The notes under the pieces are model-generated. The model made no database searches, was not told the DNA's origin, and worked only from the letters and a program-made list of their open reading frames with translations. Shown one piece after another: positions 24,733 to 33,211 of a DNA stretch of 64,000 nt; the stretch's first letter is position 1; each line of letters starts with the position of its first letter. Where the stretch lies: contig JACNKX010000081.1 of assembly GCA_014381825.1 (NCBI GenBank), positions 1 to 64,000 of the forward strand, in the 5' to 3' direction. A program made the position numbers and the translations under genes. The stretch is from Planctomycetota bacterium (lineage in GTDB: Bacteria; Planctomycetota; Planctomycetia; Pirellulales; Pirellulaceae).

Positions 24733-26121
24733 ATGAATAACGGATCGTTACTGCTTGTGGACGACGATCGGCACGTCCTCGACTCGATGTCGGATTGGTT
24801 GCGCGAACAAGGCTATGAAGTTGCGGAAGCTTCGAGTCGCGCGGAAGCGATTCAACAAATCGACAATCGAACCTACGATCTTGTTTTGGCGGATGTCCGC
24901 CTGCAAGATGGCGATGGTTTCGATGTCTTGGCGCATTGCCGCGAGCACCAACCCGCGACGACGGTAATCCTGCTAACCGGCTACGGCACCGTGGAAACAG
25001 GTGTCGAAGCGATCCGTGCTGGTGCGTTCGATTTGCTGACAAAGCCGTTGATCGACGAAGAGTTGCTGATGTCGATCCGACGAGCTCTTTCGCAGCGCGA
25101 AGTCATCGAAGAAAATAAGAAGCTGAAAGAACAACTCGATCTCCGCTTTGGCATGGAGAACATCATCGGGCACGATCATCGGATGTTGAAGATCTACGAC
25201 ATGATCGACAGCATCGCGGATACGAAAGCCACGATTCTGATCACCGGCGAGAGTGGCACAGGAAAATCACTGATCGCACGTGCGATCCATCGCCGCAGCG
25301 GTCGTCGCGAAGGAGCGTTTGTCGAGATCGCTTGTGGAGCGCTTCCCGAAGCACTGCTTGAGAGTGAGCTGTTTGGCCACGTCGCCGGTGCCTTCACCGG
25401 AGCGGCTGGCGAAAAGATGGGAAAGTTTCTCCAGGCAGATGGCGGTACGATCTTCCTCGACGAAATCGGAACGGCATCGCCAAGCATGCAAGTCAAACTG
25501 CTGCGAGTGCTCCAAGACTTCGAGTTCGAGCAAGTGGGCGGGACGAAGACGTTTCATGTCGATTCGCGAGTCGTGTTGGCAACGAACGAAGAGCTTTCCC
25601 AGGCCGTTGCCGAAGGGCGTTTCCGGCAGGATCTGTTCTATCGTGTCAACGTGATCAACATCGAACTTCCTTCACTCCGTGAGCGAATTTCAGACATCCC
25701 GCTGCTCGCTCAGCACTTCCTTGATTCTGTCTGCGAAGAGTCAGGACGTCAGGTGGAAGGATTCAGCGAAGAAGCGCTGACAGCGCTTCGCCGATACCAA
25801 TGGCCCGGCAATGTTCGCGAATTGCAGAATATCGTCGAGCGAGCCGTGTTACTTGGTAAGGGTCCCAGGATCACCGTCGCAGATCTTCCAGGCCAACTCG
25901 CATCGGGAGCGCCTGTTTCGGTGCAGTCCTCGCCCGGTGCTTCGCTCAAGAACGCATTGGACGCACCCGAACGTCAAATCATTCTAGACGCGCTGCAAGC
26001 GAATAATTGGAATCGCAACGCGACAGCCGAACTGCTCGGCATCAATCGCACGACGCTCTATAAGAAGATGAAGAAGCTTGGTCTTCAGGATCCTCGACAA
26101 GCGATGACGTTTTTGCAGTAG
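24733..26121 (+). CDS. Sigma-54-dependent response regulator (NtrC/AtoC type)
   Basis: Receiver domain, Walker A GESGTGKS, sigma-54-contacting [22 protein letters not shown], Fis-type [30 protein letters not shown]. Confidence 0.96.
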
Positions 26122-26148: not shown

Positions 26149-27054
26149 CTATCGACGCAAGTCGACGGAGAACGTTGGATTGTTTGCCACCGGGAGCATT
26201 GGGGCAAACCGCCGCGAACGACCTGATTGAGCATTGCCGCCTGGATAATAAACTACTCCCAGATAGGCGTCGACCGTTCCTGAGTCGGAAGGCGTGATGA
26301 AGTTCGCTTCGCCGAAAATTGCAAGACGATCGTTGAGCGGTACATGGATATCCGCTCCATAAACGAGCTGGACTCCGGTAGGATCAGCTACCGGAAACAG
26401 AATAAGTTCTTCGCCGTGTGGCTCGGCCGCTCCGACCCAAATGCTGGTTTCAGCTCCTCGTTCCCACGAATGTCGCCAGTACGCATTAACTTGGCTTATC
26501 GGCTCCAGACTAAGAGGAGTCCCAAGAAACGTCGCAGAGTCGCCGTGATCGGACACCGTGAACCACACGCCGAAATCGTCGCTATCAGATAGTTCGTGCG
26601 CTACAGTCCCTCGCCATTGCCCAAGATTGATTCCTTCGTAGTAATTCTCTGCGAGAAAGTCGTAAGCGAATCCCCACTTCCAGCGCCCGTCTCCGCGCTG
26701 AAAGACGCCGACGGTGGTAAAACTCTGAAATCTCTCGCCAGTACCTTGTAGAGCCTCGACCGCTCCCACCGCAAAGTCGTGGTAATTGACTCCTGATCCG
26801 AGCTGCATGCCGATGCTAAGTTCTTCGTGCAGTGGGACGCTGAAGTTGATGTGCGCTCGAGCACCCATGTGGGCATTCACGCCAAGATCTTGCGGCTGTT
26901 TCGAGCCGTCTAGACCGAAGAACATGGACAGGTTCTCGTTCCAGTTATTTCGTACGTCATCGTGGAAGGCTGAATACTCTTCGTCTATCTGCGATGTCGG
27001 TTCGATTTGTGCGGGGGCTACCGCCATGGCGCAAAAAACGAAGAGTATGTTCAT
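26149..27054 (-). CDS. Secreted/outer-membrane beta-barrel-like protein (resembles DUF6666 family)
   Basis: 301 aa; signal peptide; FGLDGSKQPQDLGVNAHMGARAHINFSVPL and alternating barrel-like segments. Confidence 0.65.
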   Translation of the reverse strand: MNILFVFCAMAVAPAQIEPTSQIDEEYSAFHDDVRNNWNENLSMFFGLDGSKQPQDLGVNAHMGARAHINFSVPLHEELSIGMQLGSGVNYHDFAVGAVEALQGTGERFQSFTTVGVFQRGDGRWKWGFAYDFLAENYYEGINLGQWRGTVAHELSDSDDFGVWFTVSDHGDSATFLGTPLSLEPISQVNAYWRHSWERGAETSIWVGAAEPHGEELILFPVADPTGVQLVYGADIHVPLNDRLAIFGEANFITPSDSGTVDAYLGVVYYPGGNAQSGRSRRFAPMLPVANNPTFSVDLRR

Positions 27055-27181: not shown

Positions 27182-30100
27182 TCAAGCCGGTGCTTGCATC
27201 CGGCAATAGCGCTGGACGATAGCAGGGCACCAGTCAGCGTCGATGACTTCGCCGACATCGCAGTTATCACGGAGAAATCTAACGGTTTCCGAGTTTTCGA
27301 TGATCGTGTCGGTAACAAGCAGATCCCCAGCGACACCCAGATCCAACAGCCGCTTCGTCACGTGGACGGTCGAGCCGAAGTAGTCGAGCCGGTCATTCAG
27401 CGTCGTTACCATGGCGGGACCGCGATGAGCTGCGACGCGAGCTGTCAACGGATCCTTGCGATCGGGCGACGATAACGCCGCATGAATTGCCAACCCCGAT
27501 TTGACGGCGGAACTAGGATCGGTGAAGGTCGCGATCATCCCTTCGCCAACGATCTTCACAACCGCGCCGCCGTGTTGAGTAATGCAGTTCTCTAATGCGA
27601 CTAACGCCTCGCGGATCACATCGAACGCTTCTCCATCCCCAAGCTGCTCGTAAAGTTCAGCTCCGCCGCCGATCTCCGCCATGAGCATCGCAACGGTCGC
27701 CACACTGACCATCTGACCGGCTGACAGCACTTGTCCCGGCAATAGCTCGCCAAACAGCGGAAAGGAAGAAGCATCTGCCGCCGTAACTGCGTCGGCGCGC
27801 GATGCCGTTCGTTCGAGCCGCATCATCAATTCTGTCGGACCATCGTTAAGCAAAGTCACCACTTGCGAGCCAGTTCTCAGAATTGGAACAAGGTCTCGCG
27901 GTGTCGGCTTCGAGAGGCGAATTTCGCACCGCCCGCTCGCGCCGCGTGAAGCAACTCGCAGATCGACCGCGAACGGTAGCTGCGGCCCACAGAGGCGATA
28001 CGCGCCTTCGGACAACGCCAATTCCATCTCGAATCGTTCTCCGGGCGGCAGTCGCACTTGGGCCACGACATGTGCGGAGAACGCGGGCCCCCCGATACAG
28101 TAGGTCTGCACTTCGACGTCGCGAATTTCGGGATGGGCTCGAAAAATCATCTCGATCGAATTCGCAAAGTCTAGCTCGAAGTTGGCATCGCACGCTTCAC
28201 AGTGTCCGTGTCCTTCGAGTGCCGCCAACGACTCTTCGACGTTCGACGGAATGCGACAAGAAGGACACAGTATGTCCCACAACAGTACCAACAACCCTTC
28301 TCGTGCCCCGTGTAAACAAGCGGCGAGAGCGCTCGTCGCATCAAGGTCGAATCGTTCAGCAAACGCTCGCGGTCGAATACGAGCGACTTCCTGATCCGAA
28401 GCATGTTCCAGGAACTGCCCGAGCGTGTCGATTACGGTTGCATCGAGTCCTCGGTCACGCAACCGTTCGATGCGTTGGTGCAAACGAGTTCTTCTTCGCG
28501 CCGATAGCGCCGCCGACTTGCGAAACGCGTCGGCCGTCGGGTCGGTATGCTTGCCGCTGGCGATAAAGCCATCGATCTGTTGATAGATCCGACCAAGCGA
28601 GCGTCGAGCTTTCATGCCAATTTCCATCTTGGCGATCAGCCGCCCGAGCATGTTCTTCGGCTCTAGCAACACTTTGTGACTGAGCAGCGTTGTACCGTCC
28701 ACCTGTGGCGTAAGTTCCACAACATTGACAAACCAAGTGAACGGTCCGTGTGAAAACTCCCGCAGAACGCTCATTCTTCGACCTTCCGTCCACTCGAACG
28801 GATGCTCTTCCCAAGCGATCCGTTGACCCGCGATTCGTGTTTCCGCAAACCGACGGACGCCACGTTCTGGGTCGTTGCGAGTCGAAAATCGAGCTGGTGG
28901 CAAACCCATCGCTTGGTTCAGTCGATCCGTGTTCGCTACGAACGGCCATAACTGAGCAGCCGAAGAATTGAGTGTCCACGTAAATTCGTACTCCAGCGTT
29001 CGAGCGGCATCGCAGTTGGGGAGCGCCGGGTGAATTGCTAAAGACGTCGCTTTACCGAGAAGAAGATTTTCGAGATCAACCAGCAACGCTTCTGCATCGG
29101 CGTAGCGAGCATCTGGATTTTTGGCGAGCGTCTTCTCGACGACGCTCTCGATCGCGCTGCCTATTCCAGGTTTCGTCTTCGACAACGATGGAATGGGATC
29201 GTGGCTGTGTTTGTTCAATACAGCAACGTGCGTCTTGGCGACGTACGGAGGACGTCCCGCTAGTAAATGAAACAGTGTCGCCCCCATCGAGTACACATCG
29301 GATCTCTCGTCGGTCGCCTCGCCGCGACACTGCTCCGGTGGCATATAGAACGGCGTTCCCATGACGGCACCCTGGCGCGTGATCGCCAGCGATTCACTCT
29401 GATCGAGACTCCGAGCGAGCCCGAAATCCGCAAGTTTGACGAGCGGCTGCTGTGTTTCTGACGGAGCCGTTTCCGCCGAGATTCGTTGGGTGCCGGCTGC
29501 GGTCAGCAAGAGATTGTCCGGTTTGATATCGCGATGCACGATCCCCCGACTGTGGGCAACGGCCAAGCCTCGTGCGACATCAACCATCAGCGCGAGCGCA
29601 ACGACTTCGTCGAGCGATGTTCGTTCTTCCAGCAATTCCGCCAAGTTGCGTCCCGGCACGAATTCCGTCACTAGGTAGGACACGTCGTCTTCGGTATTGA
29701 ACTCCAGAAGGTTTGCAACGAACGGGCTTTGCATCTTTGCAAGCATGCGGGCTTCTTTTGCGAATCGACGACGCGACGCAACGTTGTTGACGACCGCTTT
29801 GCCAAGCACCTTGATCGCGACCGCTGCACCGTCCGCCATGTCCTCGCCCCGATAAACGGCCCCCATTCCTCCTTCGCCAAGCTTGCCGACGATTCGGAAG
29901 CGTCCCAATTGTTCCGGCATCGGCTCATCGCTTGGTTCGACGACTTCGACGTCCGACTCGACGGTTTGATCGAGCCGAGCGCCGCCTAACGACTCGCTCG
30001 TCGCGAGTTGCGTTTTATCGAAGCTCGGCAGCGTCGCTGTGGAGACGATCGCGATGCGCTTCGCACAAGAATCCAACTGCTCGGCAAAGCCTCGCGCGGT

Positions 30101-30811
30101 GGTTCGATCGGCAGGGTCTGTAGCGAGCGCATGAGACAGGCACGCTGCTAGTTGGTCGGAAATCGGCTTCAACTCGTCGATCGTGGTGAGGTCGTCCTTG
30201 ATCGCCCCAACCTCTACGCTGGCAGCGCGCTCGCGGTCGACATGCTTTCCCAATAACAGCCAATGCAGAATTGTCGCGAGGCTGAACACGTCGCTGGCTG
30301 CCTCGGGTTCACCCCGCGCCGCCTCGGGCGCGATAAAGTCAGACTGACGATGCTCCGGAGCGTTAATGTCGATTGGATGGGTGCAATCAAGCTTCCAGAC
30401 GTCGTCGTCGCTTTGGATGTTCTCTGGGCAGATTGCACCATGACTAAACCCAACGCGATGCATCGCGATCAGTGCGTCTGTAAGTTTTCGGATCAATCGG
30501 ATCGTATCTGCTTGCGAGAGTGGTTGCTTCGCCTGTTGTTCGACGAGATTCGCGCCCTCAAGCCACTCGAGCGCTAGGTGAGGCGGATCGGCGTCCAATT
30601 CCAGTGTCTCAATCGAACGTAATGCCGGACCGCTTGCTAACGCTGCCTTTGCCAAGCGTGATCGCAGTTCGACCCCGGAAGAAGAATCAGCATCGACGGT
30701 CGTGAGCAGTCGGATCTCGACTGGTGAATTCGTACGCATGTCGACGGCTCGATATCGACCGAGGTCGCTGCCTAGCAATGGCGCATCGAGCCGGTACCTT
30801 CCAACTTGCAT
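27182..30811 (-). CDS. Chimeric signalling protein: pseudokinase + Ser/Thr kinase + SRPBCC-like + Zn ribbon + divergent class III cyclase-like domain
   Basis: Active kinase: VGKLGEGGMGAVYRGEDMADGAAVAIKVLG, IVHRDIKPDNLLL, KLADFGLARS. N-terminal kinase-like domain with HGAICPENI in place of HRDxKPxN. CPSC/CEAC ribbon. Cyclase-like VVKIVGEGMIATF and DYFGSTVHVTKRL. Start at ATG 30811. Confidence 0.9.
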   Translation of the reverse strand: MQVGRYRLDAPLLGSDLGRYRAVDMRTNSPVEIRLLTTVDADSSSGVELRSRLAKAALASGPALRSIETLELDADPPHLALEWLEGANLVEQQAKQPLSQADTIRLIRKLTDALIAMHRVGFSHGAICPENIQSDDDVWKLDCTHPIDINAPEHRQSDFIAPEAARGEPEAASDVFSLATILHWLLLGKHVDRERAASVEVGAIKDDLTTIDELKPISDQLAACLSHALATDPADRTTARGFAEQLDSCAKRIAIVSTATLPSFDKTQLATSESLGGARLDQTVESDVEVVEPSDEPMPEQLGRFRIVGKLGEGGMGAVYRGEDMADGAAVAIKVLGKAVVNNVASRRRFAKEARMLAKMQSPFVANLLEFNTEDDVSYLVTEFVPGRNLAELLEERTSLDEVVALALMVDVARGLAVAHSRGIVHRDIKPDNLLLTAAGTQRISAETAPSETQQPLVKLADFGLARSLDQSESLAITRQGAVMGTPFYMPPEQCRGEATDERSDVYSMGATLFHLLAGRPPYVAKTHVAVLNKHSHDPIPSLSKTKPGIGSAIESVVEKTLAKNPDARYADAEALLVDLENLLLGKATSLAIHPALPNCDAARTLEYEFTWTLNSSAAQLWPFVANTDRLNQAMGLPPARFSTRNDPERGVRRFAETRIAGQRIAWEEHPFEWTEGRRMSVLREFSHGPFTWFVNVVELTPQVDGTTLLSHKVLLEPKNMLGRLIAKMEIGMKARRSLGRIYQQIDGFIASGKHTDPTADAFRKSAALSARRRTRLHQRIERLRDRGLDATVIDTLGQFLEHASDQEVARIRPRAFAERFDLDATSALAACLHGAREGLLVLLWDILCPSCRIPSNVEESLAALEGHGHCEACDANFELDFANSIEMIFRAHPEIRDVEVQTYCIGGPAFSAHVVAQVRLPPGERFEMELALSEGAYRLCGPQLPFAVDLRVASRGASGRCEIRLSKPTPRDLVPILRTGSQVVTLLNDGPTELMMRLERTASRADAVTAADASSFPLFGELLPGQVLSAGQMVSVATVAMLMAEIGGGAELYEQLGDGEAFDVIREALVALENCITQHGGAVVKIVGEGMIATFTDPSSAVKSGLAIHAALSSPDRKDPLTARVAAHRGPAMVTTLNDRLDYFGSTVHVTKRLLDLGVAGDLLVTDTIIENSETVRFLRDNCDVGEVIDADWCPAIVQRYCRMQAPA

Positions 30812-31089
30812 AATTGAATCGACGATCAGAAGCGAAAGAAAGATCGGCGGCACGACCGCTCATGCGCGATCGGCCCAATAATCGACAAAACGATGTTGTA
30901 CAGCATCGCGAGTCGGGTGGCATCCAGCAACGTTGCCCTAAATTCTACGGATCAGCGGCAACAGGTCGCGCCCGATCCCGTCACGTCGATTCGACGGCTT
31001 ATTGACCGTTCTGCGCACCGGCACCTATAATCCGCAACTCACTCCTTTACTCGATGCCCCTACCAGATATTCTGAGCGGAAATGTTGCG

Positions 31090-32274
31090 ATGAAAATTCA
31101 CGAGTATCAGGCCAAGCAGGTCCTGCGAGGCGCAGGTGTTGCGGTTCTCGATGGCCATGTCGCCGAGACGGACGACGAAGCTGCCAAAGCGTACGATGCT
31201 TTAGGCGGGTCGATCGCGGTTGTTAAAGCCCAGATTCATGCCGGCGGTCGCGGCAAAGGGACCACCAAGGAGAATCCAGAGCAACACGGCGTTCAACTTG
31301 TGAAAAGTGCGGACGAAGCTCGCGCTGTCGCCGAAGGTTTGCTCGGGAACACGCTGGTCACGATTCAAACCGGTGCGGAAGGCAAGACGGTCAACAAAGT
31401 TTTTGTCGAAGCCGGCTGCAACATCGCTCGGGAACTGTATCTTGGCATCGTGCTGGATCGTGCCGCCGCGATGCCCGTGTTAATGGTTTCGACGGAAGGC
31501 GGCGTCGAGATTGAGAAAGTCGCTGAAGAGACTCCGGAGTTGATCTTCAAGGAGCATTTCGATCCACATTTTGGCTTGCAAAGTTATCAAGTTCGTAAGC
31601 TCTGTGCGAAGCTCGGCATCAAAGGCAAGAGCATTCGCAGCGCTGACAAGTTTATGAGGGCGCTGTGCAAGGTTTACGTCGATTACGATTGCAGTCTCGC
31701 TGAAATCAATCCTCTGGTTGTGACGGGTGAAGGCGAGTTGGTTGCGCTCGACGCGAAGATGAGCTTCGACGACAACGCTCTCTTCCGTCATAAAGACATT
31801 CTCGAGTTCCGCGATCTAACTGAAGAAGAGCCCTCCGAGGTTCGTGCCGGCGAAGCAGGTCTAAGCTATGTCAAACTTGAAGGAAATATCGGCTGTTTGG
31901 TCAACGGAGCCGGCCTTGCGATGAGCACGATGGACATCATCAAGCTCAACGGCGGACAACCCGCGAACTTCTTGGACGTTGGCGGAGGTGCTAACGCCGA
32001 ACAAGTGACCGAGGCCTTCCGAATCATCCTCTCCGACCACCATGTGAAAGCCGTACTCGTAAATATTTTCGGCGGCATCATGCGTTGCACGACAATCGCC
32101 GAGGCGCTGGTTCAAGCGTACAAAACGGTTGGCTTTAACGTGCCGCTCGTCGTTCGCTTGGAAGGAACGGAAGTCGAAGAGGGAAAGAAGATCATCGCCG
32201 AAAGCGACGTCGATATTATCACAGCCGATGACATCAACGACGCCGCCAAAAAAGTTGTAGCAACGTTGATATAA
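31090..32274 (+). CDS. sucC: Succinyl-CoA ligase (ADP-forming) subunit beta
   Basis: [61 protein letters not shown]; start at ATG 31090. Confidence 0.97.
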
Positions 32275-32329
32275 CGTCGTGGTGGCTTCCAGCCGCCGCA
32301 GATTCAAAGCAAACTCGAAAGTTGCAACG

Positions 32330-33211
32330 ATGAGCATTCTGGTAAACAAAGACACGCGTTTGATCTGCCAAGGTATCACCGGCAAGGCCGGTGAATTTCA
32401 CTCGAAGAACTGCCTGGATTACGGAACCGATCTTGTTGGTGGCGTAACGCCCGGCAAAGGCGGCGAAGAAGTCCTCGGCAAGCCGGTTTTCGATACCGTC
32501 GCAGAAGCCGTCGAGCAAACTGGTGCGGACGCAACGATGATCTTTGTGCCTGCTCCATTCACAGCGGACGCGATTCTCGAAGCGATCGATGCGGGCATCA
32601 AAACGATTGTGGCAATTACCGAGGGCGTTCCTGTCTTGGACATGGTTCGCGTCTATGAGATTGTTCGGAACAGCGACTCGGTACTGATCGGACCAAATTG
32701 TCCGGGCGTGATCACATCCGACGAATGCAAGATCGGCATCATGCCCGGTTACATTCATCAGCCTGGCAAAGTCGGTGTCATGAGCCGTAGCGGCACACTC
32801 ACCTATGAAGCCGTTTGGCAAACCTCGAGCATGGGACTTGGCCAGACGACGTGCGTTGGACTGGGCGGCGATCCAATCGTCGGGACATCATTCATCGATC
32901 TCTTCAAACTCTACGAAGCCGATCCAGCCACGGAGGCGATTCTAATGATCGGCGAAATCGGCGGCACCGCGGAAGAAGAAGCCGCAGCGTTCGTCAAGGA
33001 ACATGTCACGAAGCCAGTTGCCGCGTTCATCGCCGGTCGCACCGCGCCTCCCGGCAAACGAATGGGTCACGCCGGTGCCATCATCTCCGGTGGCAAAGGC
33101 ACTGCGGCCGAGAAGGTTGCCGCTCTTCAAGACGCTGGCATCGCAGTGGCGGAAAGTCCTGGTGACATGGGCGAGGCGGTTGCTCGCGCGATTAAGAACA
33201 AGGGCAGGTAG
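32330..33211 (+). CDS. sucD: Succinyl-CoA ligase subunit alpha
   Basis: [92 protein letters not shown]. Confidence 0.97.

Follow-up and report, generated by a model that had tools for sequence, protein, structure and literature searches.

A planctomycete protein family in which an apparently working Ser/Thr kinase is fused to a pseudokinase and a probably inactive cyclase domain

The gene, its domains and its neighbours

The DNA analysed here (the window, 64,000 nucleotides in all) belongs to a planctomycete genome of 9.7 Mb. Its minus strand carries a genuine open reading frame that runs from an ATG at 30811 to a stop at 27182 and encodes 1209 residues. A GTG lies 14 codons upstream and could give a protein of 1223 residues, but the ATG at 30811 is preferred because several relatives (L031, L032, L034, L036 and L050) begin at the matching position.

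The reading frame, Pfam searches and family alignments divide the whole gene (27182-30811, minus strand, as are all the domains below) into a pseudokinase, a Hanks-type Ser/Thr kinase, an SRPBCC-like domain, a DUF5939 ribbon and a putative pseudocyclase. Pfam matches are found to Pkinase (residues 306-574, E 6.7e-58), to DUF5939 (PF19363; residues 784-900, E 1.6e-17 to 3.5e-17, 62.9 bits and so above the curated cut-off of 22.5) and to Guanylate_cyc (PF00211; residues 1036-1175, E 1.1e-5). The C-terminal half was modelled by AlphaFold2 at pLDDT 89. Within it, residues ~607-752 (28556-28993) show a pattern of beta strands and long helix at pLDDT >90, a secondary structure like that of SRPBCC domains, and in relatives L021 and L130 the corresponding region matches Polyketide_cyc2. 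The DUF5939 region (28112-28465) includes a ribbon at residues 849-874 (CPSC..CEAC) whose four cysteines are invariant in family alignment A1. A sequence-only reading of this DNA had proposed the order pseudokinase, intact kinase, SRPBCC-like domain, zinc-ribbon-like element and class III cyclase fold; profiles, conservation and structure models back this order, and the residues quoted in that reading are all found in the translation. A single chain thus apparently holds, as judged from its residues, one live enzyme fold and two that are impaired in catalysis, an arrangement conserved across the lineage.

The next gene downstream, 127 bases away on the same strand (26149-27054, minus), encodes a DUF6666 protein (PF20371, E 1.9e-27). 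Its product is predicted to be secreted or barrel-like and has a GSKQPQDxGVNA signature. A DUF6666 homolog occurs near the kinase gene, on either side, in 20 of 65 loci, making this a candidate associated gene. From their translations, the plus-strand flanks resemble an NtrC-type response regulator (24733-26121) and a succinyl-CoA ligase pair, sucC/sucD (31054-33211).

The pseudokinase and the live kinase

The N-terminal region (residues ~1-262, 30026-30811) had been read as kinase-like from its letters, and modelling bears this out. AlphaFold2, given an alignment of 20 family members, returned a confident kinase fold (pLDDT 86), for which the best Foldseek matches are PknB and PknA, with E about 1e-13 and a TM score of about 0.6-0.75, the upper value being normalised to the target. 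In this protein the beta3 Lys is replaced by Arg (VEIRLL), HRD by HGA and DFG by DCT (KLDCTH). Are these losses peculiar to one genome? None of 41 relatives has the beta3 Lys, which is replaced by Arg in 31 of them, and three retain the HRD Asp, which the other 38 have lost; 40 retain the structural alpha-F Asp. The absence of DFG, noted in the sequence-only reading, holds for this protein but not for the family, since 35 of the 41 relatives keep the DFG Asp in the form D[F/L][T/L], having lost the glycine. A pseudokinase is defined as lacking at least one of the beta3 Lys, the HRD Asp and the DFG Asp (PMC4718504); here the kinase fold is present and the Lys, the HRD Asp and DFG are all absent. 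By its residues, then, the N-terminal domain is an inherited pseudokinase and not a copy that has decayed in a single genome.

The pseudokinase is not found throughout the family. Among the 63 relatives whose 5' ends are complete, 40 have a long N-terminal region and the other 23 begin 52-148 residues before the live kinase. Roughly one family member in three is without the pseudokinase, whose presence and absence require at least six changes on the tree.

The middle domain (residues ~304-576, 29084-29902) has a Gly loop, beta3 Lys, HRD Asp, DFG Asp, APE Glu and alpha-F Asp, and its VAIK, HRDIKPDN and DFG motifs are intact. The catalytic Lys and two Asp are retained in 83-84 of 85 aligned rows, and the nearest sequences to the protein in the PDB are the StkP and PknB kinases. 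Together with the Pkinase match, these residues uphold the earlier description of this domain as intact, and indicate that it is apparently a working Ser/Thr kinase.

The cyclase domain and the origin of the fusion

The C-terminal domain (residues ~1017-1192, 27236-27763) has a class III cyclase fold: its model matches Ma1120 with a TM score of about 0.82 over the domain and 22% identity (Foldseek). The six class III catalytic positions (Rv1625c numbering) were scored across 120 non-redundant sequences. The window gene appears twice in the raw kinase-group table (as the query and as L001) and the count was corrected for this; L052 (a contig-end fragment whose sister in the tree is the window gene) and L135 (truncated) were set aside from the no-kinase group.

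At these six positions the 1209-residue protein reads E-K-E-D-H-R. The metal-binding Asp residues are replaced by Glu1046 and Glu1090 and the transition-state Asn by His1150, and Lys1086, Asp1143 and Arg1154 are retained. Not one of 82 kinase-fused proteins has both metal Asp residues (singly, the first is present in eight and the second in 23), the transition-state Asn is kept in nine and the Arg in about 28. Stand-alone DUF5939 cyclases, on the other hand, have the full D-K-D-D-N-R set in 32 of 33 cases, L014 departing from it at two positions. The catalytic set is lost also in L132 and L133 (both from genome G046), DUF5939 proteins with a C-terminal kinase, and is kept in the long, kinase-less DUF5939 cyclases L130 (1517 residues) and L021 (890 residues). 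The last two have large N-terminal regions without Pfam matches.

Could the domain nevertheless be a divergent but active cyclase, with Glu in place of Asp at both metal sites, so that phosphorylation and cyclic nucleotide synthesis are joined? Both Asp-to-Glu changes are conservative and leave room for residual activity, and the fold is intact with its pocket Lys, Asp and Arg in place. A live enzyme would not, however, be expected to tolerate the residue losses seen in the fused relatives, in which the paired Asp are never found, Asn is rare, Arg is kept in under half, and changes to Arg, Gln, Ser, Cys or Ala outnumber those to Glu at the first metal position. On these family-wide losses we rejected an active cyclase, and regard it as highly improbable. 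The cyclase domain of the 1209-residue protein, in which the fold and Arg1154 are present and both metal Asp and the transition-state Asn are absent, is almost certainly dead, and the chain probably makes neither cAMP nor cGMP. The link between phosphorylation and cyclic nucleotide signalling that had been envisaged within this one chain is accordingly unlikely, because catalytic residues are missing from the cyclase domain of every kinase-fused relative examined.

A related idea is that the domain is a C2-like half-cyclase, which pairs with a metal-bearing class III partner to form an active heterodimer like that of mammalian C1 and C2. The kept Lys and Asp, with Arg as well in this protein, would fit such a role, and there are six further class III cyclase loci in the window genome. 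That genome lacks a stand-alone DUF5939 partner, however, and it is the transition-state Asn and Arg, seldom kept in the fused set, that a C2 half supplies. A C2-like role for the family as a whole was therefore rejected, and we consider it very unlikely.

What, then, is the domain conserved for? In the fused set used for conservation ranking, 83% of sequences retain the base-recognition Lys and 79% the base-recognition Asp, and the columns of Lys1086 and Asp1143 rank 15th and 18th of 175; the metal and transition-state columns rank 56th-136th. A ligand-free scaffold or dimerisation unit, with the SRPBCC pocket or the zinc ribbon acting as the sensor, would agree with the drift of much of the cyclase domain (median top-residue frequency 0.40 per column) and with the location of the most conserved C-terminal positions, which fall in the SRPBCC region and the ribbon (WEEHPFEW and the four Cys). 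A pure scaffold has no obvious need, on the other hand, of a Lys and an Asp that are among the top 18 columns, and we hold this alternative to be possible but rather doubtful. We favour a pseudocyclase whose remaining role may be to bind a nucleotide or to make a dimer contact. A nucleotide-sized ligand is plausible because the Lys/Asp base-recognition pair is kept; that the third adenine-pocket position is Lys in this protein, and not the usual Ala, makes nucleotide binding uncertain.

The fusion itself had been thought unusual, and turns out to be common: in a sample of 394 genomes from the class, 67 carry the C-terminal family, which is found in 45 of 186 genera and nearly all of whose members sit in kinase-sized open frames. 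When six peptide patterns taken from the 1209-residue protein were run against 85,462 species genomes, 36 loci came up. Of these, 33 group with planctomycetes (L051, from bacterium isolate RI_54, included), and their matches either span the kinase junction or fall on pieces of genes of this kind. The other three loci lie outside planctomycetes and all lack the kinase; with patterns this short and specific, the scan is no proof that the fusion is confined to the phylum.

Did cyclase loss occur repeatedly, independently with each fusion? Quick maximum-likelihood trees (short searches without bootstraps, some rows being long-branched) argue against this and it was rejected: a single branch separates the kinase-fused proteins from the rest, with SH-aLRT 99 when the whole C-terminal half is used and L052 is counted as fused, and with SH-aLRT 87 when the SRPBCC-DUF5939 part is used and the cyclase columns are left out. 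Since there is a single clade, fusion and loss of the cyclase residues probably happened once and early, and the catalytic positions probably drifted later as the Lys/Asp pair was retained. By the same token the association of fusion with cyclase death amounts to about one event and is no statistical proof of cause.

The linker, FHA-EAL neighbours and related systems

Between the two kinase domains lies a Thr-rich linker (residues ~263-303, 29903-30025), of low pLDDT at residues 268-282. The [DE]xT pattern is over-represented in the linkers of relatives, with [DE].T[GVCI] in 31 linker sequences against a mean of 9.7 and a maximum of 18 in 500 shuffles. In several of the linkers of L042, L043, L045 and L063 a motif resembling D/E-x-T-[GC]-E-[VI] occurs two or three times, which may provide more than one phospho-docking site. 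The linker of the 1209-residue protein has LDQTVESD and lacks the fuller [DE].T..[VILM] motif.

At 13 of 65 loci the kinase gene is immediately followed, in the same orientation, by one for a protein with an FHA domain and, after it, an EAL domain; coordinate comparison found direct FHA-EAL adjacency in 16 of 50 genomes, a set that partly overlaps the 13 loci. Botrimarina colliarenosi (L035) and Rhodopirellula baltica (L063) are among the species with a linked homolog. In 12 aligned FHA-EAL proteins the key FHA residues are invariant and the EAL motifs ExLxR, N, E, DDFG, K, E and Q are all present, and we therefore predict that the linked proteins are active c-di-GMP phosphodiesterases. No FHA-EAL protein above threshold was found in 21 of the 50 kinase-bearing genomes. 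The window genome has two FHA-EAL genes (C44 and C45), both unlinked to the 27182-30811 gene. One of the two (at L155, 2805-6785, plus strand) directly follows the gene of a different Ser/Thr kinase, of 898 residues with a ribbon-like N-terminus, which indicates that kinase and FHA-EAL pairs are not limited to the pseudocyclase-kinase family. By simple counts [DE].T..[VILM] is commoner in linkers with an adjacent FHA-EAL gene (16 of 22) than elsewhere (11 of 59), but a comparison along the tree shows no significant association, the shared ancestry of the relatives leaving only 5-6 independent contrasts. Since FHA-EAL is the next gene in many relatives, the output of the kinase may reach c-di-GMP, and the neighbourhoods suggest such a link for part of the family.

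The retention of broken enzymes beside a working kinase suggests that they are kept as its control modules. We give about an even chance to a soluble Ser/Thr kinase in which one live catalytic domain is flanked by enzyme-derived regulatory modules; the pseudokinase, SRPBCC pocket, ribbon and pseudocyclase would be allosteric, ligand-sensing or dimerising elements that set kinase activity, in a design that mirrors receptor guanylyl cyclases with their pseudokinase and live cyclase. For those receptors an allosteric ATP site within the cyclase domain is reported (PMC4718504), which offers a precedent. In part of the family the kinase might autophosphorylate its own Thr-rich linker, the FHA-EAL protein might dock on the phosphorylated linker, and the output would then be c-di-GMP hydrolysis and not cAMP or cGMP synthesis; the docking step is offered as a suggestion from sequence patterns. 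A more specific version, in which the pocket of the pseudocyclase senses a nucleotide and allosterically switches the kinase, as a mirror image of receptor guanylyl cyclases, and many species signal through a linker-docked FHA-EAL protein to c-di-GMP, is speculative and unlikely to be correct in full.

If these assignments are right, a widespread lineage of planctomycete proteins has taken on class III cyclase domains as dead modules attached to a live kinase, opposite to the layout of receptor cyclases; the cyclase annotation of kinase-fused DUF5939 proteins is probably misleading; and the pairing of a kinase gene with an FHA-EAL gene could tie Ser/Thr phosphorylation to c-di-GMP in these bacteria. 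The non-subscription literature searched yielded no description of this architecture (an absence that is thus provisional), no mention of DUF5939, and nothing relevant on FHA-EAL-kinase or kinase-cyclase fusions; 'cyclase' and 'pseudokinase' are absent from the main text of a census of planctomycete Ser/Thr kinases (PMC11032199).

Several known systems share parts of the arrangement. Closest to the live kinase domain are the Hanks kinases of the PknB/StkP type, and the pseudokinase too has a PknB-like fold. PknB and StkP carry transmembrane and PASTA regions instead of an SRPBCC-DUF5939-cyclase tail. The TOMM kinase/cyclase fusions (TIGR03903, NCBIfam) likewise combine a bacterial Ser/Thr kinase with cyclase homology at similar length, but TIGR03903 matches the 1209-residue protein in the kinase region only, with 136.1 bits against a cut-off of 705.75, so that the protein is not a member. 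Stand-alone SRPBCC-DUF5939 class III cyclases (PF19363 plus PF00211) have the same C-terminal half at about 30% identity, but are without the kinase and, in all but one of the 33, have intact catalytic residues. Receptor guanylyl cyclases (GC-A, GC-B and GC-C) also pair dead with live enzyme domains of the same two fold families; they are membrane receptors, however, in which the roles are reversed, a pseudokinase controlling a live cyclase, and we claim no homology of overall architecture with them.
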